DNA of 64,000 nt, from positions 248,001-312,000 of the forward strand of contig NZ_JAMXWN010000002.1 of assembly GCF_024125425.1 (NCBI RefSeq), in the 5' to 3' direction. The translations under genes were made by a program, and so were the position numbers. This DNA comes from Sporolactobacillus kofuensis (GTDB lineage Bacteria; Bacillota; Bacilli; Bacillales; Sporolactobacillaceae). Shown here piece by piece: positions 23,309 through 39,331 of this stretch. Each line of letters begins with the position of its first letter. Positions within the stretch are counted from its first letter, which is position 1. The notes beneath the pieces are model-generated. The model was not told the origin of the DNA. It did no database searches and saw only the letters and a program-made list of their open reading frames with translations.

Positions 23309-23567
23309 TTTCTATCCTCCGTTAATCTTTTTCACTCATTCACTAACTTTTCTAGAACACAAGAAAGTTGAATATAAGTCAATTATATGAAATTTTTTCA
23401 ATGAAGGCGAACGTGAGGCAGTAACAGGTGACGATTCATAGCTAGTGAATCAATTACAGGCATGAATTAAAGAGAGAATAGAAGATCTTTTCATCACGTA
23501 TTTTGACTATGTAGTTGCTATAATAAGTGAAGGAGATAACGTTTACATGGAATGGGGAGATCAGACT

Positions 23568-24446
23568 ATGTATCTTGGAGCTATCGAAGCCGGGGGCACG
23601 AAATTTGTTTGTGCGGTTGGTGATGCATCGGGCAAAATTCTAGCTACTGAACGTATTGCAACAGAAACACCAGAGATAACTATGGAAAAGGTCATCAAGT
23701 TTTTCATGAATTTCAAAATTGAAGCGTTAGGCATTGCAACATTTGGTCCGGTGGATTTGGATCCGGAAAGTGGAACGTACGGCACGATCACATCCACACC
23801 GAAACAGGGTTGGGCAAATTATCCATTGCTAAAAACAATGAAGAAAAAGCTAAGCTTGCCGGTGGGCATCACTACGGATGTGAATGGAGCGGCACTTGGA
23901 GAATTATATCGGGGGGCAGGAAAAGGACTAAATGGCTGTCTGTATCTGACCGTGGGGACTGGTATTGGAGGAGGAGCAATATCAGAAGGCCATGTACTTC
24001 AAGGGATGAGCCATCCGGAGATGGGGCATATCCTACTGCGCCGACATCCGAATGATCAAGAATTTGAAGGAATTTGTCCCTACCACAAGGACTGCCTTGA
24101 GGGACTTGCCTCCGGACCAGCGCTTCAAGCCCGCTGGGGGAAACCAGCGCGTGCATTGCCTTCAGATCATAGTGCTTGGGAAATCGAAGCGGATTATCTG
24201 GCCCAAGCGTTGATGCAATACGTATTGATTGTTTCACCAAAACGGATCATTTTGGGCGGTGGGGTCATGAAACAGGCACAACTCTTCCCATTAATTCGAG
24301 AAAAATTACGCTTGTATCTCAATAACTATGTCGCTTTTCCTGAGCTCAATGCGGATATTGATGCGTACGTTGTACCACCAGCGCTTGGTGACAACGCAGG
24401 AATTACCGGAGCACTAATTCTCGCAAAACAAAGTTTAGTAAAATGA
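23568..24446 (+). CDS. ROK family fructokinase
   Basis: A sugar kinase that phosphorylates fructose. The phosphate-binding EAGGTKFVCAVG is at residues 7-18, with sugar-binding DVNGAALGE and GTGIGGG near 103 and 128. The ROK zinc-binding pattern HPEMGH...CPYHKDCLEG is complete. The protein begins with conserved sequence at MYLGAIEAGG, so ATG 23568 (SD GGGGAGA) is preferred over 23547 (SD AAGGAG, 10-nt spacing). It is monocistronic with no sucrose genes nearby, and other hexoses remain possible. Confidence 0.88.
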   Translation: MYLGAIEAGGTKFVCAVGDASGKILATERIATETPEITMEKVIKFFMNFKIEALGIATFGPVDLDPESGTYGTITSTPKQGWANYPLLKTMKKKLSLPVGITTDVNGAALGELYRGAGKGLNGCLYLTVGTGIGGGAISEGHVLQGMSHPEMGHILLRRHPNDQEFEGICPYHKDCLEGLASGPALQARWGKPARALPSDHSAWEIEADYLAQALMQYVLIVSPKRIILGGGVMKQAQLFPLIREKLRLYLNNYVAFPELNADIDAYVVPPALGDNAGITGALILAKQSLVK

Positions 24447-24474
24447 CTAGCGTTTTGAGTATAGTCCATTCAGA

Positions 24475-24506
24475 GACGAACGGAAAAATCTTTCCGTTCG
24501 TTTTTC
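24475..24506 (+). terminator. Terminator of the fructokinase gene
   Basis: GAACGGAAA and TTTCCGTTC arms followed by GTTTTT. Confidence 0.9.
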
Positions 24507-24648
24507 ATTATTCGCAGACTAATATCAATGTTCCTGGTATTCTTACAACGCCTCGAACCCATGAAAGAGAGGCAATGGATAACTTCCTTGTATTCTGTTG
24601 TACACTGAGGCGCGCATGTCCATGGTCAAATAAGAATCTGAGCAGTTT

Positions 24649-26055
24649 TCATTGATTGCTAATAAATTCAGGTTCTTGATAGGTAAAATAGCTGCTTAAA
24701 TAGTCATGGCGATTATCGAGAAAAAGTGCACTGGCTACAGCTTTTGCGATTTTCGGCAAGCTGTATTTCATTCCGGAAAGTGCAGAAGCCGAAAGTCCGC
24801 AACTGATCATCGCCGAATAGTTAAAAGCAAAGAGGCCATGAAGCAGTTCTTTACCTTCTTCATCTCGGCTGAGTAAGCCGAAACCGGGACTAAGGTAGGG
24901 ATGTGCATCAAGAAGCTGATTCTTTATTTCTTCCGGGGCATTGTAGCAGTCGCTCCAACGGGCAATGTATTTTTCGACGAGTCTTAGTTCAGGACGCAAG
25001 GCGGGATCTGTGCGAAGACCAGTGCTGACAATTAGAAAATCAAAGGAGAAGGAGTCTTTTGCAGTGGTTACCTTTGCGGTGTCCTCAGTTCGAGCAACAT
25101 CAAGCCAGGGGGATCCGAGGTGGAGGTGGAATCCCGGCCACGCAGATGCACGCGCAAACATGTCATTGGTTGGCGGTTGATTTAGCTTGAAGAAGTGGGC
25201 CATTACTGCGTACTTTTCTGCATCGGTCAATAAATGAAAATGCTCAATCAAACCTGACGGCTCCAACTGGCGGATTGGATTTACGCGTGGCAGTGCTGGG
25301 CGCCGAACAAAAACATGGACTTCTGAAGCACCTTTCGACAATGCAAAATGAGCATTGTCAAAGGCTGAGGCACCTCCGCCTAATACTGCAATTTTCTTTC
25401 CGTTTAGCCGATCAAAATCAATAGCTTCAGAAGTGTGCGCATAGAGATTCTTTGGAAGCTTATCTGTGATCATCGGTGGAATATACCAGCTGCCGCCGCC
25501 TTGAATACCAGTAGCTAGAATCACTTTTCGGGCGAGTAGAGTATCGGATGGCGCATGTGTACCGCCAACATGCAAACGGTAAATCCCATCTTTAATCGGT
25601 TCGATTAAGTTCAATTTGACTTTATTCATCACTGGAAGATCAAGCACATGCCGATACCAGCGTAAGTAGTTCATCCAATCGCCCCGCGGAATTTTGTCAA
25701 GAGCCGCCCAACTCTCCTGCCCAAACTGTGCCTCCCACCAGGAGCGGAAGGTTAGTGAGGGGATTCCGAAATCTAGAGGTGTTAGCTGTTTTGGTGTTCG
25801 TAAGGTAACCATGCGGGCATAGGTCACCCAAGGGCCTTCCAAGCCCTCTTCGTTCTCATCAATAACCAGAATGTTGGAAATCCGTTCGCGCATAAGACCA
25901 AAGGCAATCCCCAGGCCACACTGCCCGCCTCCGACGATTACTGCGTCGTAGACATGACCATCAGGATGATTGACCGGGCGTACCCAATCCGGGCTGTTCA
26001 TGACAAGATAGGAGAGATCTTGTTTTACCCGTTCGTTCAACGCGTCCAGACTCAT
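24649..26055 (-). CDS. FAD/NAD(P)-binding oxidoreductase, group B monooxygenase-like
   Basis: A 468-aa flavoprotein with two Rossmann motifs: VIVGGGQCGLGIAFG for FAD near residue 40 and IAVLGGGASAFDNA for NAD(P) near 225. This layout fits flavin monooxygenases of group B or N-hydroxylases, not the single-motif HpxO urate hydroxylase. The segment WVTYARMVTLRTPKQLTPLDFGIP is a conspicuous conserved-looking block. ATG at 26055 has AAAGGAG upstream; TTG 26061 is too close. It faces the amidase gene divergently at the edge of the purine island, which lacks uricase. It is therefore a candidate for purine-ring or urate oxidation, or for electron supply to the Rieske protein. That role is inference. 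Confidence 0.75.
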   Translation of the reverse strand: MSLDALNERVKQDLSYLVMNSPDWVRPVNHPDGHVYDAVIVGGGQCGLGIAFGLMRERISNILVIDENEEGLEGPWVTYARMVTLRTPKQLTPLDFGIPSLTFRSWWEAQFGQESWAALDKIPRGDWMNYLRWYRHVLDLPVMNKVKLNLIEPIKDGIYRLHVGGTHAPSDTLLARKVILATGIQGGGSWYIPPMITDKLPKNLYAHTSEAIDFDRLNGKKIAVLGGGASAFDNAHFALSKGASEVHVFVRRPALPRVNPIRQLEPSGLIEHFHLLTDAEKYAVMAHFFKLNQPPTNDMFARASAWPGFHLHLGSPWLDVARTEDTAKVTTAKDSFSFDFLIVSTGLRTDPALRPELRLVEKYIARWSDCYNAPEEIKNQLLDAHPYLSPGFGLLSRDEEGKELLHGLFAFNYSAMISCGLSASALSGMKYSLPKIAKAVASALFLDNRHDYLSSYFTYQEPEFISNQ

Positions 26056-26236
26056 AGCCAAACCACTCCTTTAATTGTGAGAATTTTTACTATTTATAGT
26101 ATCGTTTTCGTCGACATAGATCAATTGCAATAGATCTAAATATTCTCTTTATAATTAGTCACTTTCACTAGAAAAATGGTCATAGCCTGCTTCCCTGTGG
26201 CTATACACGATTCATCCATAGAACACAAATAGTTTT

Positions 26237-26251
26237 TGTACGATTCGTACA
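26237..26251. promoter_or_regulatory. Palindromic operator candidate
   Basis: TGTACGA-T-TCGTACA, a perfect 7-1-7 inverted repeat, lies in the divergent region between the flavoprotein and amidase genes. TATAAT at about 26300 with an upstream TTGTA-like box would be the amidase promoter. The regulator is unknown. Confidence 0.5.
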
Positions 26252-26356
26252 GAAACAAATGCCCGGATTTGAGTTAGACTTGTATTAGGCGATGATGACG
26301 TATAATAGGAGTTAACTTGTTTTCTTAAAATTAGGATAAAAAGTGGTGATCGGAAA

Positions 26357-27547
26357 ATGGAGAAGGATCAATTTGGTGCTTTCGTCCAGGATCAGATGAA
26401 TATTGAACCTACAAGAAATGGGTTACTCGATCAGATGAGTTTTGCTGTTAAAGATGTTTTCGCTGTTCGAGGTCATGTCAATAGTGGTGGAAATCCAGAT
26501 TGGCAGAAGACACATTCAGCTGCGGACAAACATGCCTGGACGGTCGAGCGACTGCTCGAAAACGGGGCGACATTGCGCGGTGTAACCGTGACCGATGAGC
26601 TAATGTACAGCCTGAAAGGGGATAATATTCACTACCCACCAACGATAAATCCGCGTATCCCAAGTTCTTTCTCAGGAGGTTCGTCAAGCGGTTCGGCCGT
26701 TGCTGCAGCTGCCGGGTTAACCGACTTTGCAGTGGGCACTGATACCGGTGGATCTGTTCGTATTCCATCATCTTATTGTGGACTTTTCGGCATCCGTACA
26801 ACGCATGGCGCAATTCCACTTGATGGTGTGATCCCTTTGGCACCAAGCTTTGACACGGTTGGATGGATGGCAAAGAAGGCAGAAGTTCTAGCGGCAGTGG
26901 GGCAATGTCTGCTCTCCGATGAAGCAATTGCCACTTACAAGCATATGTACATTCTCGAGGATGCATGGGACCTCATTACGTCTGAAACAGTAAAAGAAAC
27001 TTTGGAACAGGCGGTCTCCCATATGTTCCTTGATCAGACTATTCAGCATGTCCGTTTACCGTTAACCTCACTGGAGGAACTCGTCGAGACTTTTCGTCTC
27101 ATTCAAGGTATCGAGGCTTGGGAGGCACATGGCAGATGGATTGAAGCTATTCACCCTCGGTTCGGTCGAGATATTGCCGGTCGATTTGAAGCTGCGTCGA
27201 AAATGAAGCGAGATGAAGCCTTTGATCGAGCGGTACAGATTAAAACGCAATTTGTCCACGAGATGAGAAGTTTCGTTGGATCAGACAGCCTGCTCATCTT
27301 GCCGACTACCTATGGGCCTGCACCTGACCGGGATGCATCATTTGAAGCGAGTGAAAAAGTACGTGCGCAAACGATGAAACTGACCTGTATCGCCGGTGTT
27401 TCAGGATTGCCCCAGGTCACAATTCCAGTCATGGATCATGGCCGACCACTTGGACTTTCTTTGATTTCCGGCGCGCACACGGACCAACAACTGCTGGCAT
27501 TTGTTGAAGAATTATGCAGAACAAGTGGTGACGCATACATAGGATAA
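26357..27547 (+). CDS. Amidase signature family hydrolase
   Basis: A 396-aa Ser-cisSer-Lys amidase. The triad is visible: Lys32 (FAVKDVF), cis-Ser109 (SGGSSSGSA) and nucleophile Ser133 (GTDTGGSVRIP). The size fits single-domain AtzF/AtzE-like amidases without the C-terminal allophanate domain. It is the first gene of a set with OHCU decarboxylase and 5-hydroxyisourate hydrolase. In the same island the ureidoglycine transaminase would release oxalurate, so hydrolysis of an N-carbamoyl compound or an amide in this pathway is plausible but not shown. The gene spacing to uraD is 63 nt. Confidence 0.85.
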   Translation: MEKDQFGAFVQDQMNIEPTRNGLLDQMSFAVKDVFAVRGHVNSGGNPDWQKTHSAADKHAWTVERLLENGATLRGVTVTDELMYSLKGDNIHYPPTINPRIPSSFSGGSSSGSAVAAAAGLTDFAVGTDTGGSVRIPSSYCGLFGIRTTHGAIPLDGVIPLAPSFDTVGWMAKKAEVLAAVGQCLLSDEAIATYKHMYILEDAWDLITSETVKETLEQAVSHMFLDQTIQHVRLPLTSLEELVETFRLIQGIEAWEAHGRWIEAIHPRFGRDIAGRFEAASKMKRDEAFDRAVQIKTQFVHEMRSFVGSDSLLILPTTYGPAPDRDASFEASEKVRAQTMKLTCIAGVSGLPQVTIPVMDHGRPLGLSLISGAHTDQQLLAFVEELCRTSGDAYIG

Positions 27548-27610
27548 TTCAAGAGCTGTCCGTGCCAAGAGTACAAAGCCTCGATTCACCATTGAATGGG
27601 AGGATGCCAA

Positions 27611-28108
27611 ATGAAACTTGAGACATTGAATCGAGCGGATTCAGATCATTTTGTCGAGCTGCTTGATGGGGTCTTTGAACACGCGCCATGGATTGTCAAG
27701 AAAATCGATCATTTGAGACCTTTCTCATCGATTGATACATTATTCAGAGCAATCGCGTCTGCATTAACAACTGCATCATACGAGCAAAAAGAGGCATTGA
27801 TCAATGCTCATCCTCGGCTCGGATCATCTGGAAAAATGACGGAAAGATCTACACGTGAGCAGCAACAAGCAGGGCTTCAGAACATGGAAGAGGAAGAGGC
27901 GACTGCTTTCGCAAAATTAAATGCCGACTATGAAAAAAGATTTGATCTCCCGTTTATCATGGCAGTTCGAGGAAAAACAAAATCTGAAATATACGCAGCG
28001 ATGGAAAAGCGAATCCACAATACCAAAAAGAAGGAATTTGAAACGGCAATTGACGAGATTCTGAAGATTACACGTTTTCGATTGGATGATCTGTTGCATG
28101 AAGAGTAA
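27611..28108 (+). CDS. uraD: OHCU decarboxylase
   Basis: 2-oxo-4-hydroxy-4-carboxy-5-ureidoimidazoline decarboxylase forms S-allantoin as the last step of urate conversion. The 165-aa protein contains the catalytic His67 in INAHPRLG, then QQQAGL, LNADYEKRFDLPFIMAVRGK and a basic C-terminal helix, in family order. ATG at 27611 lies behind GGGAGG; the upstream ATG at 27596 precedes the SD. In many bacilli this domain is fused to uricase in PucL; here it is a free-standing protein, and no uricase domain follows. Confidence 0.93.
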   Translation: MKLETLNRADSDHFVELLDGVFEHAPWIVKKIDHLRPFSSIDTLFRAIASALTTASYEQKEALINAHPRLGSSGKMTERSTREQQQAGLQNMEEEEATAFAKLNADYEKRFDLPFIMAVRGKTKSEIYAAMEKRIHNTKKKEFETAIDEILKITRFRLDDLLHEE

Positions 28109-28175
28109 CTAGGATCAGAGATTTTCATACGCCAATTGATTGGTCAATCCAATCAGAACCAATGGGGGAATGGTT

Positions 28176-28526
28176 ATGGGCCAGCTCACGACACATATTT
28201 TGGACTTGACACAAGGGAGACCGGCGTCAAATGTCCAAATCGATGTGTACAACGTGGATGGGGAAATGATCACTTTTTTACAGAGCAGCAGGACAAACGG
28301 TGATGGACGTTTGGACGCTCCGTTGCTTGTCGGAATGAATTTTTACGAAGGCATCTATGAATTGCATGTTCATATTGGCGACTATTTCAAGCGAACAAAT
28401 CATTCTTCAGATTTAACTTTTCTAGATATTGTCACCGTTCGTTTTCGTGTTGCAGATGCTGAACAAAACTACCATGTACCGTTGCTTGTGTCTCCGTTTG
28501 GCTATCAAGTTTATAGAGGCAGTTGA
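28176..28526 (+). CDS. uraH: 5-hydroxyisourate hydrolase
   Basis: A transthyretin-like enzyme that hydrolyses 5-hydroxyisourate to OHCU. The 116-aa length, the N-terminal LTTHILD (His7) and the C-terminal signature YRGS are diagnostic. The start at 28176 has GGGGGA upstream. The longer frame from 28140 contains the SD. It lies 67 nt after uraD, and the two catalyse consecutive steps. The operon ends at the terminator at 28803 shared with the convergent permease gene. Confidence 0.95.
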   Translation: MGQLTTHILDLTQGRPASNVQIDVYNVDGEMITFLQSSRTNGDGRLDAPLLVGMNFYEGIYELHVHIGDYFKRTNHSSDLTFLDIVTVRFRVADAEQNYHVPLLVSPFGYQVYRGS

Positions 28527-28589
28527 AGAAAACTAGGTGACGCCAGATCCTTGCTCTATGCTGGAATGTTGGATTTTGAACGTCGATAT

Positions 28590-28740
28590 GTGCTCGATTA
28601 CACTCCAGTTGCTCTCTTTCCGAGGGTGATCTGGGAGCCTCCTTGAACAACCTGCTGCCTGCGGGGCTCCCTGGTTCGCATCACAAGTGGTCCAAAAGCA
28701 GTCCCGCACTTTCCTGTTTAATCCTAACGTGTTCAAAGAG
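28590..28740 (-). repeat. Dispersed repeat family, copy E (inverted)
   Basis: Read on the minus strand it matches the family: GAACA...GGATTAAACAGG, GTGCGGGACTG, GCGAACCAGGGAGCCCCGCAGG and AAGGAGGCTCCCAGATCACC. It is the only clear minus-strand copy in the window and explains the 28527-28800 gap. Confidence 0.7.
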
Positions 28741-28802
28741 TACTCCGTTGATCGGAACACTGGATTTATCCAAATAGTTATATGTTCTTACTTAGTAAGA
28801 AG

Positions 28803-28838
28803 AACAAGAAGCGCGGCAATTTCACCGCGCTTCTTGTT
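28803..28838. terminator. Bidirectional terminator
   Basis: AACAAGAAGCGCGG and CCGCGCTTCTTGTT form a 14-bp perfect stem between convergent uraH and the permease gene. Confidence 0.88.
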
Positions 28839-28871
28839 GTAGATTATGAGTTTGGGGAAACACAGAACCAT

Positions 28872-30209
28872 TTAAGATTTTGCCGCACTCGTTTCAGCAA
28901 CCATTTGCTTTGAAAGATTGGTAACCTCTTCTTCGTGTGTATGACGGCCAACATTAAAAATAACATTTAGAATAAGGGCGGTAAGACTACCGGAAACAAT
29001 TCCATTATTGGTGAGAATCTGGATGAGACTCGGAAACTTTGCGAACAACTCGGGTTGGACCGTGACGCCGAGCCCGATGCCGATCGAGCAGGCAATGATC
29101 AACAAGTTTTCCTGACGCGAGAAGTCAACTTTTCCGAGCATGCGCACACCGGAAGCAATGACCATGCCAAACATGGCAAGAGTCGCACCGCCAATCACAG
29201 CACTCGGAATCAATACGGTCAACGCACCAATTTTAGGAATCAAGCCAAGCGTAATCAGTGCAACACCGCAGACGATCGCCACTTTGCGGGTTTTTACACG
29301 AGTCATTTGGACAAGTCCGACATTCTGTGAGAAAGTCGTGTAAGGAAAAGCGTTGAAAAGCCCACCAATCAGAATTGCCAGCCCTTCCGCACGATACCCG
29401 TGCTTCATTGCCTTCTCATTAATCGGCTGTTCACAGATTTCGCTGAGTGCGAGATACACACCGGTCGTTTCGATCATACTGACAATGCCGACAATCGACA
29501 TGGCAATAATGGCGTCAATGTGGAATGTCGGGGCACCGAAACTGAATGGTTTGATCAGGCTGAACCAGCCAGCACTACTTGCTGATGAAAAATCAACCAT
29601 GCCCATAAAAGCAGCAGCAATCGTACCGACGACAATACTGAGTAGGATGGAAATCGTGCGCAGGAATCCTTTGAAAAAACGGTTCAGGACAATAATCAGC
29701 GCGAGCACGCCGAAACCAAGTCCTAAGTTTTGGGGACTACCGAAGCCCTTAGCCCCGACACCGCCTCCCAAATTGTTGATTGCAACGGGGATCAGCGTAA
29801 TGCCAATGATCATCACAACTGTACCGACAACAACAGGTGGAAAGAAATGGACGATTTTCCCGAAAATAGTGGACAGAATGAGTACCACCAGCCCGGCAAC
29901 GAGAATGGCACCGCAAATTCCGGGCATTCCGTACGATTTACCAATGATGATCATTGGCGACACCGCTGTAAAGGTACACCCCATGACGATTGGAAGACCA
30001 ATACCGAAATACCGGTTTTTCCAGGCCTGAAACAGCGTGGCGAGCCCACAAGCGGCAAGATCAATGGAAACAAGCAGTGCAAGTTCAGCACCATTCAAGC
30101 CAACAGCACCACCGACAATCAGGGGAACGATGACTGCACCGCCATACATGGCAAGCATGTGTTGAATGCCAAGCGATAATATTTTTCCGGATTTTTGTGT
30201 CGTGCCCAT
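28872..30209 (-). CDS. NCS2 family purine/urate permease
   Basis: A 445-aa proton-coupled purine transporter of the nucleobase-ascorbate (NCS2) family with about twelve to fourteen membrane segments. The family signature SQNVGLVQMTRV lies near residue 297, and the substrate-binding EICEQP loop comes before it. It is related to the PucJ/PucK and xanthine/uric acid permeases of bacilli. ATG at 30209 follows GAGGAG. It is the last gene of a minus-strand set after the Rieske protein and ferredoxin, so the oxygenase system and substrate uptake are probably expressed together. Urate versus xanthine cannot be separated by sequence alone. Confidence 0.9.
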   Translation of the reverse strand: MGTTQKSGKILSLGIQHMLAMYGGAVIVPLIVGGAVGLNGAELALLVSIDLAACGLATLFQAWKNRYFGIGLPIVMGCTFTAVSPMIIIGKSYGMPGICGAILVAGLVVLILSTIFGKIVHFFPPVVVGTVVMIIGITLIPVAINNLGGGVGAKGFGSPQNLGLGFGVLALIIVLNRFFKGFLRTISILLSIVVGTIAAAFMGMVDFSSASSAGWFSLIKPFSFGAPTFHIDAIIAMSIVGIVSMIETTGVYLALSEICEQPINEKAMKHGYRAEGLAILIGGLFNAFPYTTFSQNVGLVQMTRVKTRKVAIVCGVALITLGLIPKIGALTVLIPSAVIGGATLAMFGMVIASGVRMLGKVDFSRQENLLIIACSIGIGLGVTVQPELFAKFPSLIQILTNNGIVSGSLTALILNVIFNVGRHTHEEEVTNLSKQMVAETSAAKS

Positions 30210-30270
30210 TTTTCACACTCCTCTTCGATTCTTCTTCTATTAATAATGAGATAACACCAATGGAGTTAGC

Positions 30271-30546
<276 letters not shown>

Positions 30547-30579
30547 TTAGATCGTTCCATCTTTCAGATCTACGCGATG

Positions 30580-31620
30580 TCAACTTGTATACTGTTTGCC
30601 GAGTCCCATTTCTTTGAGCAGTTTGCGATAAGCAATCGATGTCTTGTCTGCCATAATATGCGCTTCAGCCATCAGATCGAGCGGAAGCTCTTCTGGCTTT
30701 TGGTTTTCGACCATTTCCTTGTCCTCGTTGAAAATTCTCAAGTTGAATGCACAAGCATCTTCAATGGATAGGTTCTTATCGAAGTTTTGGGTAATCGGGC
30801 AAAAGAGTCGAGTTTTTCTTGCGGAGATCGGACTGGCAGCATTCAGAATACAAAGCAGCTTATCATCTGGAAAATGTACAATCAATCTGGCGGCGAGTGG
30901 GGGAAAGATGTCATATTCTCTCAGCCATTTGAAATCAGCGGGTGAAGGATCATCCATGCCTTTGGGATAGTTGCTGACCGAACTGAGGTAGTCCGTGTGA
31001 ATACCATCTTCGGTACGATACACTTTATAGCTTGGAACAAATGCATTATTCCGATCGGCAAACGTATCTGTATGGACCCAGGCAAAGTGAGCAACGTCCA
31101 GAAAACCTTCAACCTGACGCCCTGCTGAACCATTAATGTCAATCACGGGCGCGATAAATGATATGTGCTCGGGATCTTCCCAAGTCGGCAAAGACGGAAT
31201 TCTTTCTTCTTCGCCGTTTAACGTTGTCCAAATGAGTCCATAGCGTTCAACTACTGGGAAGACGGTCAAACAGAGACGAGGTGAAATTTTTGCTTCAGGA
31301 TGCGCCGGAATTGCAACACATTGTCCATCAGAAGCATAACTGAATCCATGATAAGGGCAGACAATCGTGTCATTATCAACCCAACCCATGCTTAATGGTG
31401 TTCCACGATGGATGCAGAGGTCGCGTGCAACAACGGGTTTTCCCTTTGCTCGGTAAACGACGAGTTCAACATCAAGCAGTTTTACGGCTACCGGTTTGTC
31501 TGTGACCTCATCGCTTTTCGCAACGGGATACCAGTATTGAGCGAGAACGGTCCAATCTTCCAAACTAAATGTGCACGCGTTCGGATAGGGTGTGTTCCTC
31601 TGAGTGTTCACCATTGCCAT
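30580..31620 (-). CDS. Rieske non-heme iron oxygenase, HpxD-like
   Basis: A 346-aa oxygenase component. The Rieske [2Fe-2S] ligands are Cys69-x-His71 and Cys88-x2-His91 (CIHRG and CPYHGF). The mononuclear iron site shows His178 and His183 in DVAHFAWVH, with the bridging Asp175. The size and single-subunit form match the Klebsiella HpxD type of purine catabolism and the phthalate-dioxygenase group. ATG 31620 is favoured because GGGGAG ends 9 nt upstream; ATG 31626 is possible. It heads the minus-strand unit oxygenase-ferredoxin-permease, divergent from pucR. Hypoxanthine or xanthine hydroxylation is the likely reaction by context. No dedicated reductase gene is adjacent. Confidence 0.88.
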   Translation of the reverse strand: MAMVNTQRNTPYPNACTFSLEDWTVLAQYWYPVAKSDEVTDKPVAVKLLDVELVVYRAKGKPVVARDLCIHRGTPLSMGWVDNDTIVCPYHGFSYASDGQCVAIPAHPEAKISPRLCLTVFPVVERYGLIWTTLNGEEERIPSLPTWEDPEHISFIAPVIDINGSAGRQVEGFLDVAHFAWVHTDTFADRNNAFVPSYKVYRTEDGIHTDYLSSVSNYPKGMDDPSPADFKWLREYDIFPPLAARLIVHFPDDKLLCILNAASPISARKTRLFCPITQNFDKNLSIEDACAFNLRIFNEDKEMVENQKPEELPLDLMAEAHIMADKTSIAYRKLLKEMGLGKQYTS

Positions 31621-31690
31621 AGCCATAATCTCCCCTTATGTTTTAATATCAGAAAGTTTATAATGAATTTAGAAAAATCTGTATTATTAT

Positions 31691-31705
31691 GTTAGATAAT
31701 CTAAC
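31691..31705. promoter_or_regulatory. Palindromic operator candidate
   Basis: GTTAGAT-A-ATCTAAC, a perfect 7-1-7 palindrome, lies between the divergent Rieske and pucR genes, close to the Rieske start. It may be bound by PucR or another regulator. Confidence 0.5.
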
Positions 31706-31886
31706 TGAAATAATCTTTTTTTGTATATTTGATCTATAGACACGTTTTCCTTTGGATGATGTGACAAAAATTTGACGATTTGCTGATATGTTTTTCGCGG
31801 AGACGGAGTGTATGAACACGAGTTGAACAAGCCAAAGCTACTTGCTGAATGCATCAAGACGGTTGTAAAAATGGGGGAACGCATCG

Positions 31887-33524
31887 ATGATTGTCTCTGA
31901 TATTTTTTCGCAATCAACTTTTTCCGGATTTAAACTCATTGCAGGTGATGCGGGTTCTGATCGGGAAATACGCAATATTAATATGATGGACGCTCCGGAT
32001 ATTATTGATTATCTTAAGTCGGGCGACTGGTTGGTGACCTCAGGTTATCACCTAAAAAACAATGCTGATTTTTTTGAGAAATTGGTGCGGCAGATGGCTG
32101 AAAAAGGGTGCGCAGCTCTTGGCATCAAAACGAAGCGGTTTATCGAAGACATTCCTGATGCAGTGATTCAACTGGCAAATCAGCTGTCCTTCCCACTAAT
32201 TTTTATTCCCAACAGCATTCCGCTTGTGGATATCGTGAACCAGACACTGAGTCTTATTCTGAATACACGTACACAAGAGTTGCAATTTGCGATTGATAAG
32301 CACCAACAATTTTCCAGCCATATCATGAATGGCGAAGGGGCCTTACAGATTCTTGATAGTCTTTCACAGTTCATTGGATTCCCTGCAGCGCTGCTTGACA
32401 ATTATTTCAAACCCATTGCAGTCGCGCATCAAGGGTCCATACAGAATCTATTTGATCCCCTAAAACAAGTCGGTTCTGAATTCATACAGACGCGCAGTTT
32501 CTCTTCCTCATTCTGCTTGATCAACACGCATCAAGTGTATACACTCTTCCCACTTTATACGTACAAAACAAAACGCCATTTTCTGGTCATTGCTGGATGT
32601 ACAGCCATGGAAGATCGGATTAGGGTATTGACGATTGAGCAGGCGGTGAATGTACTAGCCTTTGAGTTGATTAAAGATGAGGCATTGAAACAGAGCGATC
32701 GGAAAATTCGTGATGCCTTTTTCATGAAATTAATTACTGATGAATTTTCTTCTAAAGAAGAAATGATCAACCGTGCAAAAGAATTCGGGATGCAGAGCGA
32801 ACAAAAAACGATCGTCATCGTTGGAAAGCTTGACATTGACGATCGTCAGATCAGTTTTACAACCTTCAGAAAGAAAACGAATGATGTCTGTGAATTCATG
32901 GAAGGGGAATTGGCGAACCTACCTTTTCCCGGCTTCTTTTTTGTCAAAGACACTTTCTGTATATGCTTGATTAATGTTGGGGAAGGTTGGACGAATGGAC
33001 AGCGGCAGCTTCTGCCTTATTTGGGCAGAGTTCAGAATCGAGTGGCACAATTCTTTTCCGAAACGCTTTCCTTCGGACTGAGCAATCTCTGCGTGAATCT
33101 GACCGACATCGCGACAGCATACCAGGCAGCTGTTGACGCTCTGCACGTTGGTTTGCGTTCGGGGCGACGCGCGTTTATCCAGATCTATCAATCAAATGGG
33201 TTTGCTGATCTTTTGCGCATGGTACCGATGGAAGATTTGTACAAGCTTTATCGTGAAACATTCCAAGGACTCGCTTTTTCTGAGAAAGAGGAAGACAAAG
33301 AACTTTTCCGTACGCTCATTGTCTACTTTGAGTCGAACTGCCAGATTTCAGAAACAGCGAAGAAATTGTATATTCATCGAAATACAGTCATCTATCGGAT
33401 TGAAAAATGTGAGCAGTTGCTTGGAAAAAATTTAAAAGATCCGGAGACAGGATTTATGATTCGATTTGCATTTCGGCTGAAATCTTTGATGGATGAAGCG
33501 AACAAAACACATCATTGGCTATAA
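31887..33524 (+). CDS. pucR: PucR family transcriptional regulator
   Basis: A 545-aa regulator with the N-terminal purine catabolism domain (residues 1-120, MIVSDIF...NINMMDAPDI...DWLVTSGY), a central GGDEF-like region, and the C-terminal PucR helix-turn-helix ISETAKKLYIHRNTVIYRIEKCEQLLG near residue 500. In B. subtilis PucR activates and represses purine-degradation genes in response to allantoin-type metabolites. ATG at 31887 is used. Its position between the divergent oxygenase unit and the allC-pucG-allB genes strongly suggests that it controls this island. Confidence 0.9.
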   Translation: MIVSDIFSQSTFSGFKLIAGDAGSDREIRNINMMDAPDIIDYLKSGDWLVTSGYHLKNNADFFEKLVRQMAEKGCAALGIKTKRFIEDIPDAVIQLANQLSFPLIFIPNSIPLVDIVNQTLSLILNTRTQELQFAIDKHQQFSSHIMNGEGALQILDSLSQFIGFPAALLDNYFKPIAVAHQGSIQNLFDPLKQVGSEFIQTRSFSSSFCLINTHQVYTLFPLYTYKTKRHFLVIAGCTAMEDRIRVLTIEQAVNVLAFELIKDEALKQSDRKIRDAFFMKLITDEFSSKEEMINRAKEFGMQSEQKTIVIVGKLDIDDRQISFTTFRKKTNDVCEFMEGELANLPFPGFFFVKDTFCICLINVGEGWTNGQRQLLPYLGRVQNRVAQFFSETLSFGLSNLCVNLTDIATAYQAAVDALHVGLRSGRRAFIQIYQSNGFADLLRMVPMEDLYKLYRETFQGLAFSEKEEDKELFRTLIVYFESNCQISETAKKLYIHRNTVIYRIEKCEQLLGKNLKDPETGFMIRFAFRLKSLMDEANKTHHWL

Positions 33525-33568
33525 ACTTTTGTGTACTTTAACTGAATGAAGATAAAAAAATTAGAATT

Positions 33569-33628
33569 AGTGTCAATGGTTAAAGTCAGAAATTTTGCTA
33601 AAATGAGGTTATTCACACTATATGACAT
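33569..33628 (+). promoter_or_regulatory. Putative PucR-like site and promoter upstream of allC
   Basis: TGTCAATGGTTAA (33571-33583) differs at two positions from the B. subtilis PucR box WWWCNTTGGTTAA. TTGCTA and TATATG with 18-bp spacing follow downstream. An activator site just before the -35 would fit. The evidence is weak on motif grounds alone. Confidence 0.35.
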
Positions 33629-33661
33629 TTAACCTCACATGGAAAGAGGGCTCGTCAGACG

Positions 33662-34897
33662 ATGAATCAAGTAGAGCCACTAACGGAAGAGATCGGGAAA
33701 CTCATCAACTGGTTAGCTTCGTTCGGAAGCACCAAAAATGGGGGCGTAACAAGATTACTATACAGCGCTCCATGGTTGGAAGCCCAGACGGCGATTAAAA
33801 AGAAAATGGAAGAAAGGGGACTTTCCGCCCGATTTGATGATGTCGGTAATGTCTTTGGACGACTTGAAGGTACCGAAGAACGTGATCGGGTGATTCTAGC
33901 AGGTTCCCATATCGATACCGTTGTTGACGGTGGCAAATATGATGGTGCATTTGGTGTTCTTGCGGCGATCATTGCCGTGAGCAGGTTGAAACAGCACTAT
34001 GGTGCACCAAAAAAAACGATTGAGACGGTTTCGCTTTGTGAAGAAGAAGGCAGTCGGTTTCACCTGGCTTTTTGGGGTTCAGGGAGTATCACCGGACGTT
34101 ATCAGCTTTCGGATGCAAGAAAAGTTACCGATACAGAGCACTTAACCCTTGAAGATGCCATGCATCAAGCGGGTTTTGGTACCGGCGTTTTCCCACCGGC
34201 AAAACGTGAGGATATTGCTTGTTTTCTAGAAACTCATATTGAGCAGGGGCAAATTTTAGAAGATGAAAAATTAGCGTGGGCTGCAGTCAGCCATATTGTT
34301 GGTATGAAGCGCATGACGATTCAATTAACCGGTGCGAGTAATCATGCCGGAACGACACCAATGAATAGTCGTCGTGATGCACTGTACGCGGCGTCACAGA
34401 TGATCTCTAGTGTGATTGGCGATGGAAAAAGTCAAAACAATGGATTGGTTGCAACTGTGGGCCAAATCAGCGTTCAGCCTAATGTCGGTAATGTGGTTCC
34501 GGGAACATGCACCTTCTCTCTTGATATTCGGCATCATGAGTATGACGTACTTAACGCATTCTACAGTAAGCAACTAGAGAAGTTTCGGTTGATTGCGCAG
34601 AGGGGGCAGATCGACCTGAACATCGAAACTTGGCTTGATGATCCTCCGGTGAAGATGGATCCAATGATGACGCAGCGCCATCTGAAATTAGCACGGGAAG
34701 CAGGTATCCCCTCTAAAAAGATGGTGAGTGGAGCGGGTCATGATTCACAGATTTTCGGAGTCTACTGCCCGACTGCCATGATGTTTGTTCCAAGTCACAA
34801 TGGCGTGAGTCATTCACCTAAGGAATTTACAAGAACAGAGGATTTGGAAATTGGGGTGCAGATGCTGATGAAGATTCTCTATCAGTTAGCCTATTAA
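33662..34897 (+). CDS. allC: Allantoate amidohydrolase
   Basis: An M20-family metal enzyme that hydrolyses allantoate to ureidoglycine, ammonia and CO2. The 411-aa protein carries metal ligands His83 (GSHIDT), Asp94 (GGKYDGAFG) and the Glu pair 128-129 (LCEEEGSRF), with the dimerisation domain and the C-terminal SGAGHDSQIF motif. It is close to N-carbamoyl-amino acid hydrolases. The following transaminase and allantoinase genes make allantoate the likely substrate. It is the first gene of allC-pucG-allB, 27 nt before the next. Confidence 0.9.
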   Translation: MNQVEPLTEEIGKLINWLASFGSTKNGGVTRLLYSAPWLEAQTAIKKKMEERGLSARFDDVGNVFGRLEGTEERDRVILAGSHIDTVVDGGKYDGAFGVLAAIIAVSRLKQHYGAPKKTIETVSLCEEEGSRFHLAFWGSGSITGRYQLSDARKVTDTEHLTLEDAMHQAGFGTGVFPPAKREDIACFLETHIEQGQILEDEKLAWAAVSHIVGMKRMTIQLTGASNHAGTTPMNSRRDALYAASQMISSVIGDGKSQNNGLVATVGQISVQPNVGNVVPGTCTFSLDIRHHEYDVLNAFYSKQLEKFRLIAQRGQIDLNIETWLDDPPVKMDPMMTQRHLKLAREAGIPSKKMVSGAGHDSQIFGVYCPTAMMFVPSHNGVSHSPKEFTRTEDLEIGVQMLMKILYQLAY

Positions 34898-34924
34898 TAT
34901 CTTTATCTAGAAAAGAGTGAGTAT

Positions 34925-36169
34925 ATGGAAAGAACGAAGGAACAAAAAATGTTAAAAATACCGCCTCGTAAAATTATGACGCCAGGTCCAGTAGAAGTGG
35001 ATCCACGGGTGCTCCGCGCAATGTCGATGCCGATACTTGGTCAGTTTGATCCGGCATTTACGCAAATTATGAACGAAGTGATGGACATGCTACGTGAAGC
35101 GTTTCAAACAAAGAACCATTGGGCGTACCCAATTGACGGAACATCACGTGCAGGACTCGAGGCAGTTATCGCAAGTTTAATTGAACCGGGCGATCGAATG
35201 CTTGTCCCTATTTATGGACGTTTTGGTGATTTGTTTGTTGAAATTGGTGAACGCTATGGTGCTGAAATTCACACGATGAACTGTCCATGGGGCACAGTTT
35301 TTGAACCGCAGGAGGTGATTAATGAACTAAAAAAAATTCGCCCGAAAGTGGTGGCCCTTGTCCATGGGGAAACATCTACGGGACGGATGCAGCCGTTGTC
35401 GGAAATTGGTCACGCTTGCCGGGAGTTCGACGCTCTACTGGTCGTTGATAGCGTGGCAACTTTCGGAGGGGCGGATGTTCGTGTGGATGAATGGTGTCTC
35501 GATGCAGTAATTGGCGGCGCGCAAAAATGCCTTTCCGTACCATCAGGAATTACACCAATTACTTATAATGAGCGCGTTGAAAAAGTGATTCTAAGCAGGA
35601 AAAAGGTGGAACGCGGCATTGCAACGGATTCAGATAGACGAGCAGCGTCCGTCATGCCGATCCGCAGTAATTATTTTGACCTTAGCCAGTTACAGGATTA
35701 TTGGAGTGAACGCCGTCTCAATCATCACACCGAAGCGACATCAATGGAGTATGCATTGCATGAGGGGCTGCGTCTTGTCCTAGATGAAGGGCTTGCTGCG
35801 CGTTTTATTCGACATAAAGTGAATGAAAAAGCGTTGATGGTAGGCATCGAAGCAATGGGGCTCGAGTTGTTCGGAGATCCTGATTGCAAAATGCCGACGG
35901 TCACATGTGTCGCAGTTCCAGATGGCGTGAGTGCTGATGATGTACGTAATGTTTTGCTAAAGCAATTTGGTATCGAGATTGCCGGATCTTTCGGATCACT
36001 CCAAGGAAAAATCTGGCGAATCGGCACGATGGGGTATGGCTGCCGCAAAGATAATGTACTTGCTGTACTTGCCGGACTGGAAGCGTCCCTCATTCGATGT
36101 GGGGGTTCCGTTAATCGAGGGGAAGCGCTGCAAGCAGCACTGGATGTGTATGATGAAGCAGCTGAATAA
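34925..36169 (+). CDS. pucG: (S)-ureidoglycine-glyoxylate aminotransferase
   Basis: A PLP fold-type I class V transaminase converting ureidoglycine and glyoxylate to oxalurate and glycine. The PLP lysine is Lys201 in GGAQKCLSVPSG, with the N-terminal MTPGPVEVDP and DGTSRAGLEA typical of the alanine-glyoxylate transaminase/PucG group. At 414 aa the length is usual. Placement between allantoate amidohydrolase and allantoinase favours PucG over serine or alanine transaminases. The product oxalurate needs a further enzyme, for which the amidase at 26357 is a candidate. Confidence 0.88.
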   Translation: MERTKEQKMLKIPPRKIMTPGPVEVDPRVLRAMSMPILGQFDPAFTQIMNEVMDMLREAFQTKNHWAYPIDGTSRAGLEAVIASLIEPGDRMLVPIYGRFGDLFVEIGERYGAEIHTMNCPWGTVFEPQEVINELKKIRPKVVALVHGETSTGRMQPLSEIGHACREFDALLVVDSVATFGGADVRVDEWCLDAVIGGAQKCLSVPSGITPITYNERVEKVILSRKKVERGIATDSDRRAASVMPIRSNYFDLSQLQDYWSERRLNHHTEATSMEYALHEGLRLVLDEGLAARFIRHKVNEKALMVGIEAMGLELFGDPDCKMPTVTCVAVPDGVSADDVRNVLLKQFGIEIAGSFGSLQGKIWRIGTMGYGCRKDNVLAVLAGLEASLIRCGGSVNRGEALQAALDVYDEAAE

Positions 36170-36219
36170 GCTCATGTCTTGATGGGCGGATCTTTTTACT
36201 TTAAAGGGAGATGAAGGCC

Positions 36220-37575
36220 ATGCCTTACGACTTACTGATCAAGAACGGTGATGTTGTGCTCGCTCATGAAGTGAAAAAACTTGATATCGGGATTAAGGAT
36301 GGAAAAATAGCCGCTTTAGGTGACCTATTAGAGGATCAAGCGGAGAAAGTCATCAATGCAAAAGGTAAGACGATAGTTCCTGGAATGATTGATGTTCATG
36401 TTCATTTTGATGAGCCGGGTCGTGAAAACTGGGAAGGATTCGACACAGGATCGGCGATGCTCGCTGCCGGTGGCTGTACCACTTTTTTTGATATGCCGCT
36501 TAACGGGATTCCATCAACTGTCAATAAAAAGGTGTTTGATGAGAAGGTTGTGATTGGCGAGGCAAAATCACACATTGATTTCGGCCTTTGGGGCGGACTT
36601 GTACCGGAGAATTTGATGGATTTGGAAGGGCTGGCCCATGCAGGCGCGATCGGCTTCAAAGCATTTTTATCCCCTTCCGGTAATCCTTATTTCCATTCAG
36701 TAGATGATTCTTCACTTCTTGAAGGCATGAAGCGTATCGCAAAACTTGGAGCAGTGCTTGCCTTGCATTCGGAAAGTGCGCCGATGGTTACCTTCCTTCA
36801 AAAGGAAAAAGAAGCGCAAGGATTAACGGGCTATGATGCTTACGCTGAGTCACGACCCGTACTTGCGGAGATCGAAGCTGTCTCACGTGCCCTAATGTTT
36901 GCCGAGCTGACCGGATGTCCGCTTCATTTTGTTCACATAAGCAGTGCTGAAGCTGTCGACCTGATTCAAACAGCTAAAAAGAAGGGGCAGGATGTAACGC
37001 TCGAAACTTGTCCACATTATTTGCTCTATAACCATGATGATTTTCGCCAAGTTGGTGTCGTTGGGAAATGTGCGCCACCGCTTCGCTCGGAATCTGAGCA
37101 GTATGCGCTTGTTGACCGTCTTGCTCATCAACAGATTGATATGATTTCTTCTGATCACTCCCCATGCGAGTGGAAAGACAAACAGAAAGATAATTTATTT
37201 GAAGCTTGGGGCGGGATTAGTGGTGGACAATTTTCACTGCTGAGCGCTATAGAAATTGCCCTCGCGCATCATCTTCCGCTAACTCAAGTCGCTGAGTGGA
37301 CAGCGAAACGTCCGGCTGAGCGTTTTAGGATTGCAGCAGAAAAGGGAGAAATCCGTGAGGGAGCGGATGCCGACCTTGCGCTTGTTGCCCTTGATGTCCC
37401 TCATGTTGTGACAAAGGATACGCTGTTTCAAAAGAACAAATTCAGTTTATATGAAGGTCATGTTTTTCCGTCAAGTATTCAGATGACGATCAGTCGGGGT
37501 ACACTTGTTTATTCGACTGACAAGCAGATAAATGATGAAGCAAAAGGTAGATGGATCCGCCCATCCAAAATATGA
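36220..37575 (+). CDS. allB: Allantoinase
   Basis: A cyclic amidohydrolase opening allantoin to allantoate. All metal ligands are present: His60 and His62 (DVHVHFDEPG), the carboxylated Lys147 (GFKAFLSP), His183 (ALHSES), His239 (FVHISS) and Asp312 (SSDHSPC). The RENWEGFDTGS motif and 451-aa length point to allantoinase more than dihydroorotase. ATG 36220 lies 9 nt after GGGAG; the ATG at 36211 is immediately against the SD. It is the last gene of the set, followed by a terminator. Confidence 0.93.
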   Translation: MPYDLLIKNGDVVLAHEVKKLDIGIKDGKIAALGDLLEDQAEKVINAKGKTIVPGMIDVHVHFDEPGRENWEGFDTGSAMLAAGGCTTFFDMPLNGIPSTVNKKVFDEKVVIGEAKSHIDFGLWGGLVPENLMDLEGLAHAGAIGFKAFLSPSGNPYFHSVDDSSLLEGMKRIAKLGAVLALHSESAPMVTFLQKEKEAQGLTGYDAYAESRPVLAEIEAVSRALMFAELTGCPLHFVHISSAEAVDLIQTAKKKGQDVTLETCPHYLLYNHDDFRQVGVVGKCAPPLRSESEQYALVDRLAHQQIDMISSDHSPCEWKDKQKDNLFEAWGGISGGQFSLLSAIEIALAHHLPLTQVAEWTAKRPAERFRIAAEKGEIREGADADLALVALDVPHVVTKDTLFQKNKFSLYEGHVFPSSIQMTISRGTLVYSTDKQINDEAKGRWIRPSKI

Positions 37576-37602
37576 TCTCCATACGATCAAAAATTCTATG
37601 CG

Positions 37603-37634
37603 AAATCCGCTCTGAAAGAGATGCGGTTTTTTTT
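37603..37634 (+). terminator. Terminator of the allC-pucG-allB unit
   Basis: AAATCCGC and GCGGTTT arms with an 11-13 nt loop and a run of eight T. A second weaker hairpin (AAGATCA/TGATCTT) with a T-run lies at about 37731-37770. The remaining DNA to 37924 has no gene. Confidence 0.8.
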
Positions 37635-37924
37635 ATACCTTCAACTGGTAACGCCTAAAAAATAAATGGATTTAAGGACAGAAACCACCTACATTAACAA
37701 ACAAACTTCACAGAAATCGGACCAACATAGGGAAAGATCACGAGAAGGCTGCTGCTCTCTTATGATCTTTTTTCTATTTTTCATGATGAGAGATTTAAAA
37801 AAGTAGTTTTTCAAAACTTTTGTCAACGAGAACCAGGTCCATTACACCGATTTATGAGCTCTATTTATTAAAAAAAGAATGGTATAATATAAGCGCATTC
37901 AAAGAGAACGGGGGAACATTGATT

Positions 37925-38881
37925 ATGGATACAACACCGCTATTTCTAGAACCTGCGCTTCATAATAAAATTTGGGGTGGAACTCGGCTACGGGATTTGT
38001 TTGGGTACAAGATTCCGAGTGAAACGACTGGTGAATGCTGGGGAATTTCTGCGCATCCAAATGGTCCAGCTGTGATTAAGAACGGTTCGCTTGCGGGACA
38101 AACACTTGCCGATGCATGGGCGCAACATCGTGAGTTCTTTGATAATTATGAGGGAGATGATTTCCCACTTTTGACAAAAATTCTCGATGCACGCACGGAT
38201 TTATCCGTTCAGGTGCATCCTGATGATGCTTACGCCCAAGCAAAAGAGCATGTCCCGTTTGGTAAGACAGAATGCTGGTATATTATTGATTGCGATGAAG
38301 GTGCTGAGATTGTCTATGGACATACTGCACCATCTCGGGAAGCATTCCGCCAAGCAGTTGAAGAGAAAAAGTGGGACAGCTTGTTGCGGCGTGTAAAAGT
38401 GAAGCCGGGTGACTTTTTCTATGTACCAAGTGGAACAATCCATGCTATTGGAGGCGGCTGCCTTATTCTTGAAACGCAGCAGAGCTCAGACACCACCTAC
38501 CGTGTCTATGATTACGATCGCCCTGGCGCAGACGGTAAACTGCGCGAACTGCATATTCAGCAATCTATAGAAGTCTCTAATTGTCCACATCGTGATCCGA
38601 AACTCACTTATCATGTACGTCAAGAGGCAGAAGCCAAATTCACTGAACTGCTTAGAGAAGATTTGTTCACCGTTTCTCATTGGGAGGTTCGTGGGCACAC
38701 GGAGCCGATCCAGAAGAATTGGCCATTTTTACTCGTGAGTGTTCTGGATGGTCAAGGCAAACTTCAGATTGAACATGAAAACTATGAATTGAACAAAGGC
38801 GATCATTTGGTTGTCCCGGCTTCAGTCAAATCACTACAAATCTTGGGAACCCTGGATTTGATTGTTTCGAGCCCTGTATAA
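37925..38881 (+). CDS. manA: Mannose-6-phosphate isomerase, class I
   Basis: A zinc-dependent isomerase of fructose 6-phosphate and mannose 6-phosphate, of the 318-aa short form found in bacilli. Zinc ligands lie in VQVHPDDAYA (His), GKTECWY (Glu) and SGTIHAIGGG (His). The closing LETQQSSDTTYRVYDYDR is a family hallmark. ATG 37925 follows GGGGGA; the frame from 37820 runs through noncoding DNA. TATAAT near 37883 could be a -10 element. The next gene begins directly at the stop codon. Confidence 0.93.
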   Translation: MDTTPLFLEPALHNKIWGGTRLRDLFGYKIPSETTGECWGISAHPNGPAVIKNGSLAGQTLADAWAQHREFFDNYEGDDFPLLTKILDARTDLSVQVHPDDAYAQAKEHVPFGKTECWYIIDCDEGAEIVYGHTAPSREAFRQAVEEKKWDSLLRRVKVKPGDFFYVPSGTIHAIGGGCLILETQQSSDTTYRVYDYDRPGADGKLRELHIQQSIEVSNCPHRDPKLTYHVRQEAEAKFTELLREDLFTVSHWEVRGHTEPIQKNWPFLLVSVLDGQGKLQIEHENYELNKGDHLVVPASVKSLQILGTLDLIVSSPV

Positions 38882-39331
38882 ATGCGTACGAAGCGAAGAA
38901 AGCCTGCAATTATGGTGGTTGGTGCACCTAATCAATGTTCGTTATCAAATAGAATTGGGACCAACGGGACAGCGAGGATGCAGCGTAAGTGGAAAAAGAA
39001 ATTCATGATCCGGCGTGATCGTGGTGATGCACGTGTCCTTTACCTAGGAAGACCAGGTGAAGAGATTCGTGCAGAAGATTTACGTCAAGCGGAGAAAACG
39101 ATTGCACGATGCAGCGCCGTCCTACTTCTTCAAGATGTTGTGGTTGGCGTAGCCCTGCAGACCGCTGCCCTCGCCAATAAGTATCATGTGAAGGTATTGA
39201 TTGATTCAGAACCGATGCTGTCTCTTAATGACAAGATCAAACGTGTAGCGGAACAACTGACAGTGATGTCGATGAATGACAAAAAGCATACATCCGCCAA
39301 AAAATGGCGGAAAAGAAGAAACATTGCGTAA
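38882..39331 (+). pseudogene. Ribokinase/PfkB-like remnant or divergent small protein
   Basis: A 149-aa reading frame beginning right after the manA stop, without a good SD. The segment IRAEDLRQAEKTIARCSAVL followed by LLQDVV..AALANKYHVKVLID resembles the middle of ribokinase-type PfkB kinases, where two helices precede a beta strand. An N-terminal GARV-like stretch (DARVLYLGRPG) also fits. The C-terminal anion hole and the catalytic GAGD segment are missing, and the protein ends in a Lys/Arg-rich tail. It is most likely a truncated gene. A new small basic protein is the alternative. Confidence 0.5.

Follow-up and report, generated by a model that had tools for sequence, protein, structure and literature searches.

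Among described systems, the hpxDE/hpxO system of Klebsiella pneumoniae is one of the closest to the locus examined here: its cluster holds uraD and uraH as well as genes for an HpxD-type Rieske oxygenase, a flavoprotein (HpxO) and an NCS2 permease, and the regulator is HpxR. The puc pathway of Bacillus subtilis includes PucR, allantoinase, allantoate amidohydrolase, a PucG-like aminotransferase and the UraH/UraD steps. Xanthomonas has a further flavoprotein urate hydroxylase, HpyO, reportedly described by Michiel et al. in 2012. One survey (PMC4562309) counts four gene families for urate oxidation, with Uox prevalent in monoderms, and presents HpyO as a second, non-HpxO flavoprotein urate hydroxylase, an NAD(P)H/FAD enzyme that is not homologous to HpxO. 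Here we analysed a purine-degradation cluster of eleven genes at positions 24649-37575 of a 64,000-nucleotide stretch of the Sporolactobacillus kofuensis genome (the whole stretch is hereafter the window). As in Klebsiella, uraD and uraH share the cluster with genes for an HpxD-type Rieske oxygenase, a flavoprotein and an NCS2 permease, but the regulator belongs to the PucR family and the downstream genes are of the B. subtilis type; unlike the B. subtilis pathway, however, the Sporolactobacillus genome has no match to the molybdenum domain of xanthine dehydrogenase (XDH) or to the uricase domain. We propose, with a probability of about 0.83, that this cluster encodes a complete aerobic purine pathway in which O2-dependent oxygenases replace both XDH and uricase, one at each oxidation step. 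This proposal builds on gene content, on the failure to find uricase or XDH, on the homology of the Rieske protein to HpxD and on a step-specific complementarity across Bacilli, from which we infer the substrates, cofactors and electron route.

The cluster comprises the following genes, with positions in the window:

24649-26061, minus strand: flavoprotein monooxygenase (FMO) with two Rossmann domains and a probable ATG start at 26055, proposed as an NAD(P)H-dependent urate hydroxylase (family matches, predicted fold, distribution)
26357-27547, plus strand: amidase of the PRK08310 family (NCBIfam NF006169, 442.5 bits, cut-off 391)
27596-28108, plus strand: uraD, OHCU decarboxylase (TIGR03164 above cut-off, PF09349)
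28140-28526, plus strand: uraH, 5-hydroxyisourate (HIU) hydrolase (TIGR02962 above cut-off, PF00576)
28872-30209, minus strand: NCS2 xanthine/urate permease, PbuX-like (TIGR03173, 536 bits, cut-off 414)
30271-30531, minus strand (open reading frame, ORF, to 30546): single-cluster [4Fe-4S] ferredoxin, proposed electron donor of the Rieske protein (Fer4_13)
30580-31626, minus strand: HpxD-type Rieske oxygenase, proposed hypoxanthine/xanthine hydroxylase (HpxD identity, metal ligands)
31887-33524, plus strand: PucR-family regulator (PF07905, PF13556)
33662-34897, plus strand: allantoate amidohydrolase (NF006768, 540.2 bits, cut-off 532)
34925-36169, plus strand: PucG-like class V aminotransferase, presumed ureidoglycine-glyoxylate aminotransferase (PF00266, Aminotran_5)
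36211-37575, plus strand: allantoinase (NF004839, 633.8 bits, cut-off 631; TIGR03178 above cut-off)

An earlier sequence-only reading of the window had named these genes at the same positions, apart from the amidase, and Pfam and NCBIfam profiles matched each to its gene family; its list was real throughout, and lacked this one further cluster member. The PucG-like aminotransferase reached no equivalog cut-off in the NCBIfam search and is therefore named by position, its gene adjoining those for allantoate amidohydrolase and allantoinase in relatives. In the proposed route, the NCS2 permease would import hypoxanthine and xanthine, which the HpxD-type Rieske oxygenase would hydroxylate to urate with electrons from the adjoining ferredoxin, itself presumably reduced by a housekeeping ferredoxin-NADP reductase. 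FMO, with FAD, NAD(P)H and O2, would then convert urate to 5-hydroxyisourate, and UraH, UraD, allantoinase, allantoate amidohydrolase and the PucG-like aminotransferase would finish the route, with the amidase probably cleaving the resulting oxalurate.

A uricase or XDH gene outside the cluster had been named as a refutation of the sequence-only reading, and neither was found: across the whole assembly (2.96 Mb in 43 contigs, 99.75% complete), the uricase profile PF01014 and the XDH molybdenum-binding profile PF02738 both gave 0 matches, while both score in B. subtilis, one of 14 control genomes. FAD_binding_3 had three matches in the genome, barely above the Pfam cut-off and each spanning only 33-47 residues, as would be expected of a generic FAD fold. 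One of these lies in a 553-residue open frame on another contig (G000 C34:43877-45289), which also holds the sole other Rieske domain of the genome; because both domains occur in one frame, this protein is probably a flavin oxidoreductase and not a ring hydroxylase.

The distribution of these genes was assessed in 378 evenly sampled Bacilli genomes, with FMO called at E<=1e-60 and the Rieske protein only at E below 1e-100, so that weaker Rieske matches in G344 (34%), G030 and G078 were dropped. FMO was detected in 32 genomes, all of them among the 48 that encode uraD (0/330 elsewhere), and the HpxD-type Rieske in 23, of which 22 belong to the uraD set; the sole other case is a Rieske gene (59%) at G048 C15:65235-66254, in a genome with no uraD match. 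With U for uricase, F for FMO, X for XDH and R for the HpxD-type Rieske, the 48 uraD-encoding genomes display the patterns U-X- (14), UFXR (12), -FX- (8), -F-R (7), UFX- (3), -FXR (2), U--R (1) and U--- (1). FMO is thus present in 17/17 of these genomes without uricase vs 15/31 with it, and the Rieske in 8/9 without XDH vs 14/39 with it (Fisher tests by genome, p 2.2e-4 and 7e-3, respectively). Counting each distinct genus-pattern once, the sole correction made for kinship, gave p values of 2.8e-5 for FMO and uricase and 0.02 for Rieske and XDH. Several patterns can occur within a single genus, as in g26 (9 genomes), with U-X- in 2, -FX- in 2 and -F-R in 5.

Each replacement also occurs alone, which allows one step to be assigned to each protein. 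In 8 genomes from 6 genera, FMO is accompanied by XDH while uricase and an HpxD-type Rieske are both missing, and in two genomes that likewise lack these (G026 and G112) XDH, uraD, uraH and FMO lie within 20 kb. Conversely, the G271 genome encodes a Rieske protein and a uricase but neither XDH nor FMO, and a stretch of ~9 kb there holds the genes for Rieske, PucG, allantoate amidohydrolase, allantoinase, pucR, uraH, uricase and uraD. These comparisons of gene content support the assignment of FMO to a putative urate step and of the Rieske to a putative hypoxanthine/xanthine step. Gene neighborhoods agree in several lineages: uraD, FMO and uraH adjoin in Neobacillus, Robertmurraya, Niveispirillum, G026 and on a Priestia plasmid, where the purine genes in the 21 kb viewed are a permease, uraD, uraH and FMO. 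FMO homologues on sphingomonad plasmids likewise adjoin uraD or uraH, and in Novosphingobium the uraD match stops 29 bases before the FMO match.

The likeness of the Rieske protein to Klebsiella HpxD, noted in the sequence-only reading, is real: in a search of plasmid records, it is a homologue of the annotated K. pneumoniae HpxD with 53.6% identity over 95% of its length. Identities among the 40 matches listed were 50-54%, and some of these are labelled hpxD, “molybdenum cofactor-independent xanthine hydroxylase subunit HpxD”. In an alignment of the window protein with Rieske proteins from 20 of 38 matching loci, the six metal ligands C71/H73/C90/H93 and H180/H185 are identical in 21/21 rows; these residues had been given as C69/H71/C88/H91 and H178/H183, a numbering that holds from the Met at residue 3 but not from the first ATG. 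The nearest relatives in the PDB are SxtDIOX and SxtT, followed by NdmA and NdmB. At the two positions that distinguish NdmA chain 6icp from 6ick, 18 of the 21 rows carry Asn and Phe, including Klebsiella HpxD, Komagataeibacter and Acinetobacter. We take the NdmA residues altered in 6icp to contact xanthine; no mention of their roles was found in two reviews searched by term. The three rows without the Asn/Phe pair are distant Rieske proteins (L010, L105 and L106). Two of these, L010:11933-12937 and G344 C28:266678-267637 (L105), represent a second Rieske type (34-35% identity) in which Gln replaces the Asn of the HpxD motif, and which in L010 adjoins genes that by eye resemble ABC transporters.

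Since NdmA and NdmB are methylxanthine demethylases, the solved relatives could also fit a cluster that degrades only imported urate or allantoin, with the Rieske protein acting on another substrate such as methylxanthines, and the 14 genomes with both XDH and Rieske could be read in the same way. We consider this improbable, given the level of identity to annotated HpxD, the Asn/Phe pair shared with the Klebsiella protein, the presence of the Rieske in 8/9 uraD-encoding genomes without XDH, and its location inside the uricase-containing cluster of G271, a genome without XDH.

The proposed hypoxanthine/xanthine hydroxylase appears to differ from its Klebsiella counterpart in its electron supply. 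Klebsiella has HpxE where Sporolactobacillus has a 4Fe-4S ferredoxin gene beside the Rieske gene; HpxE is missing from the Klebsiella gene table examined, which is incomplete. The ferredoxin ORF (30271-30546) contains the stretch GGAGGTGG, which indicates an ATG start near 30531, and the closest solved chain is the ferredoxin 1iqz (E 6.2e-32). A homologue adjoins the Rieske gene in 5/5 distinct Sporolactobacillus Rieske loci examined vs 0/20 other Bacilli loci (L085-L104, with flanks of only ~1.5 kb), and the Rieske neighbour in Komagataeibacter is a PDR/VanB-family oxidoreductase, the family to which HpxE belongs. Hence, a dedicated ferredoxin looks like a Sporolactobacillus variation, in which it would feed electrons to the Rieske protein. 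The Rieske, ferredoxin and permease genes, whose listed ORFs lie 33 and 61 bases apart on a single strand, look like one operon divergent from pucR.

The flavoprotein matches Pyr_redox_3, NAD_binding_9, Pyr_redox_2 and Lys_Orn_oxgnase above cut-off. It passes no NCBIfam cut-off, and its matches to 16 NCBIfam families at E<=0.1 do not include NF033623, on which Klebsiella HpxO itself scores 606 bits. Together with the lack of significant similarity between FMO and Klebsiella HpxO (BLAST E 2.3) and of any PF01494 match in FMO, this bears out the earlier suggestion of a flavin enzyme not of the HpxO type. HpxO itself was rejected as the urate enzyme by sequence, as it had no genome match at E<=1e-10 either. 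An AlphaFold2 model of FMO (mean pLDDT 80.8, 13 sequences) had, among the best 50 of 641 matches at E<=0.001, SidA, PvdA, KtzI, DfoA, SsDesB and putrescine and lysine hydroxylases, with E-values of 4.7e-19 to 4.8e-17, TMq of 0.60-0.67 and 14-17% identity. SsDesB, too, is an N-hydroxylating monooxygenase, and the predicted fold is, among the matches listed, nearest to the SidA/PvdA-type N-hydroxylating monooxygenases (class B). Despite this shared predicted fold, the identity is low, and the gene context and distribution of FMO indicate urate as its substrate, not an amine as in SidA and PvdA.

With its FAD/NAD(P)-binding family matches and a gene near those of the Rieske protein and ferredoxin, where no dedicated reductase adjoins, FMO could alternatively be imagined as the reductase of this pair, in which case the Rieske or an unidentified protein would oxidise urate. 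We rejected this interpretation, and leave it only a very small probability, because FMO and Rieske each occur without the other: FMO is found without an HpxD-type Rieske in 11/48 uraD-encoding genomes (8 -FX- and 3 UFX-) and stands with uraD and uraH, with no Rieske seen, in L007, L019, L020 and L119, while G271 has the Rieske without FMO. The predicted N-hydroxylase-like fold also argues against it.

FMO, the proposed urate hydroxylase, was placed in a midpoint-rooted tree of the window protein with 47 of 59 other FMO loci, in which several outer branches are long. Its closest named relative is from Sporolactobacillus laevolacticus (83% identity). A supported clade of 39 rows unites the proteins of Bacilli with those of sphingomonads. 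The group next to it contains Niveispirillum, Rhizobium ACO-34A, Mesorhizobium and one Bradyrhizobium protein; the first has uraD, uraH and puuE as neighbours, the second lies near an 8-oxoguanine deaminase gene, the third near an XDH-family gene, and the fourth is without such purine neighbours. One prospect, which we regard as somewhat favoured and which is compatible with the proposed pathway, is that FMO belongs to the HpyO family and spread to Bacilli, so that its chemistry would not be new. The puuE/uraD/FMO/uraH cluster of the alphaproteobacterium Niveispirillum and the homologues beside uraD or uraH on sphingomonad plasmids are consistent with this, as is the description of HpyO cited above. 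FMO also aligns with positions 1-154 of the 155 in NAD_binding_9, a family that InterPro names after HpyO and CreE. A bolder proposal, which we put forward tentatively and consider rather doubtful, is that FMO, with its SidA-like class B fold, would constitute a third urate hydroxylase family, distinct from HpxO and HpyO, and the standard substitute for uricase in Bacilli, so that together with a ferredoxin-fed HpxD-type oxygenase the pathway would need neither molybdenum cofactor nor a peroxide-forming uricase.

Several observations weigh against the proposed two-oxygenase pathway or its generality. Linkage to uraD is rare outside Sporolactobacillus: within 20 kb of uraD, FMO was found in only 4/32 sampled genomes and the Rieske in only 3/22. 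No purine genes were seen near FMO in 7/12 genome-contig loci (L003, L004, L006, L008, L009, L011 and L012), one of which offers only 3.7 kb of DNA, and none were seen around FMO in G291, G156 and G177; L004 is itself from Sporolactobacillus sp. THM7-7. Because such linkage is rare, the case for the wider family rests mainly on presence and absence, in a sample rich in family f18; many of the 48 uraD-encoding genomes come from this one family, and their counts are therefore not independent. The 15 genomes with both uricase and FMO all belong to genus g49, so that FMO does not always stand in for a missing uricase. XDH and Rieske coexist in 14 genomes, and G293 has uricase and uraD with no XDH, Rieske or FMO. 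More distant FMO homologues (33-39% identity) adjoin genes for ABC transporters and probably have another function. In the tree, three of the five outermost rows lie next to such genes. Within the S. kofuensis genome, no HpxE (VanB-type) reductase gene adjoins the Rieske gene, and the remaining genome was not searched for one; the genome-wide negatives on urate and xanthine oxidation cover PF01014, PF02738 and Klebsiella HpxO. PuuD, a membrane urate oxidase, is reported only from diderm bacteria in PMC4562309.

Two of these groups deserve separate mention. In g49, 12 genomes (e.g. G027 and G090) encode uricase, FMO, XDH and Rieske, and so seem to be doubly equipped at each oxidation step. In G293, an HpxO-like match is 28% identical.

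Downstream of the PucG-like aminotransferase, the cluster may include a candidate oxalurate/oxamate branch. Homologues of the amidase (26357-27547) occur in the clusters of L001, L002, L005, L010, L119, L120 and L123, next to a gamma-glutamyltranspeptidase-family gene in L119 (PF01019, by profile) and, by eye, in L120 and L010. Klebsiella HpxW, an oxamate amidohydrolase, is a protein of this gamma-glutamyltranspeptidase type, and because of this pairing the amidase may be an oxalurate amidohydrolase.

Within the stretches compared, the cluster genes are shared by S. vineae (L002), by Sporolactobacillus sp. THM19-2 (L005) and by a congener (G129, L123), in all of which pucR has another place in the cluster than here. 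In S. laevolacticus (L001) the cluster is partly matched, the compared stretch stopping inside pucR. An Rfam scan of 23000-39000 for known RNA regulators gave 0 matches at the gathering threshold. The full consensus of the B. subtilis-type PucR box had no match in the same interval, and its short core had 2, at 30787 (+) and 28766 (-), both outside the FMO-amidase and Rieske-pucR intergenic regions. A gene pair resembling an ABC exporter by eye adjoins the cluster at 21489-23308 (minus strand), and a similar pair flanks the cluster of G129 (L123:14111-15936).

Among the papers listed for purine use in Sporolactobacillus and for Gram-positive flavoprotein urate hydroxylases, nothing relevant appeared beyond PMC4562309 and PMC5270733. 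The sequence-only reading, which had purines oxidised by a Rieske-ferredoxin pair and a non-HpxO flavin enzyme, is supported by the homology to HpxD and by presence and absence among uraD-encoding genomes. Its further claim of a new pathway variant needs qualifying: the Rieske is of a known type, HpyO is already known as a non-HpxO urate hydroxylase, and FMO may be of that family. Judged by these listings, what seems new in either case is the combination in Bacilli, the ferredoxin beside an HpxD-type gene, and FMO, a protein with two Rossmann domains and a SidA-like predicted fold linked to urate through gene context and presence/absence, as a frequent stand-in for uricase among Bacilli.

If correct, this reading would account for urate degradation without uricase in a number of Bacilli: in contrast to the prevalence of Uox in monoderms, 17/48 uraD-encoding Bacilli genomes lack Uox, and all 17 encode FMO. 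Should FMO work like HpxO and HpyO, water would presumably be released instead of peroxide, judging from PMC4562309, which would be of interest for urate-lowering enzymes. With a separate step proposed for each protein, testing the genes singly in B. subtilis becomes straightforward. Overall, these results point to molybdenum-free purine oxidation in Gram-positive bacteria, with an electron donor gene unlike that of Klebsiella.

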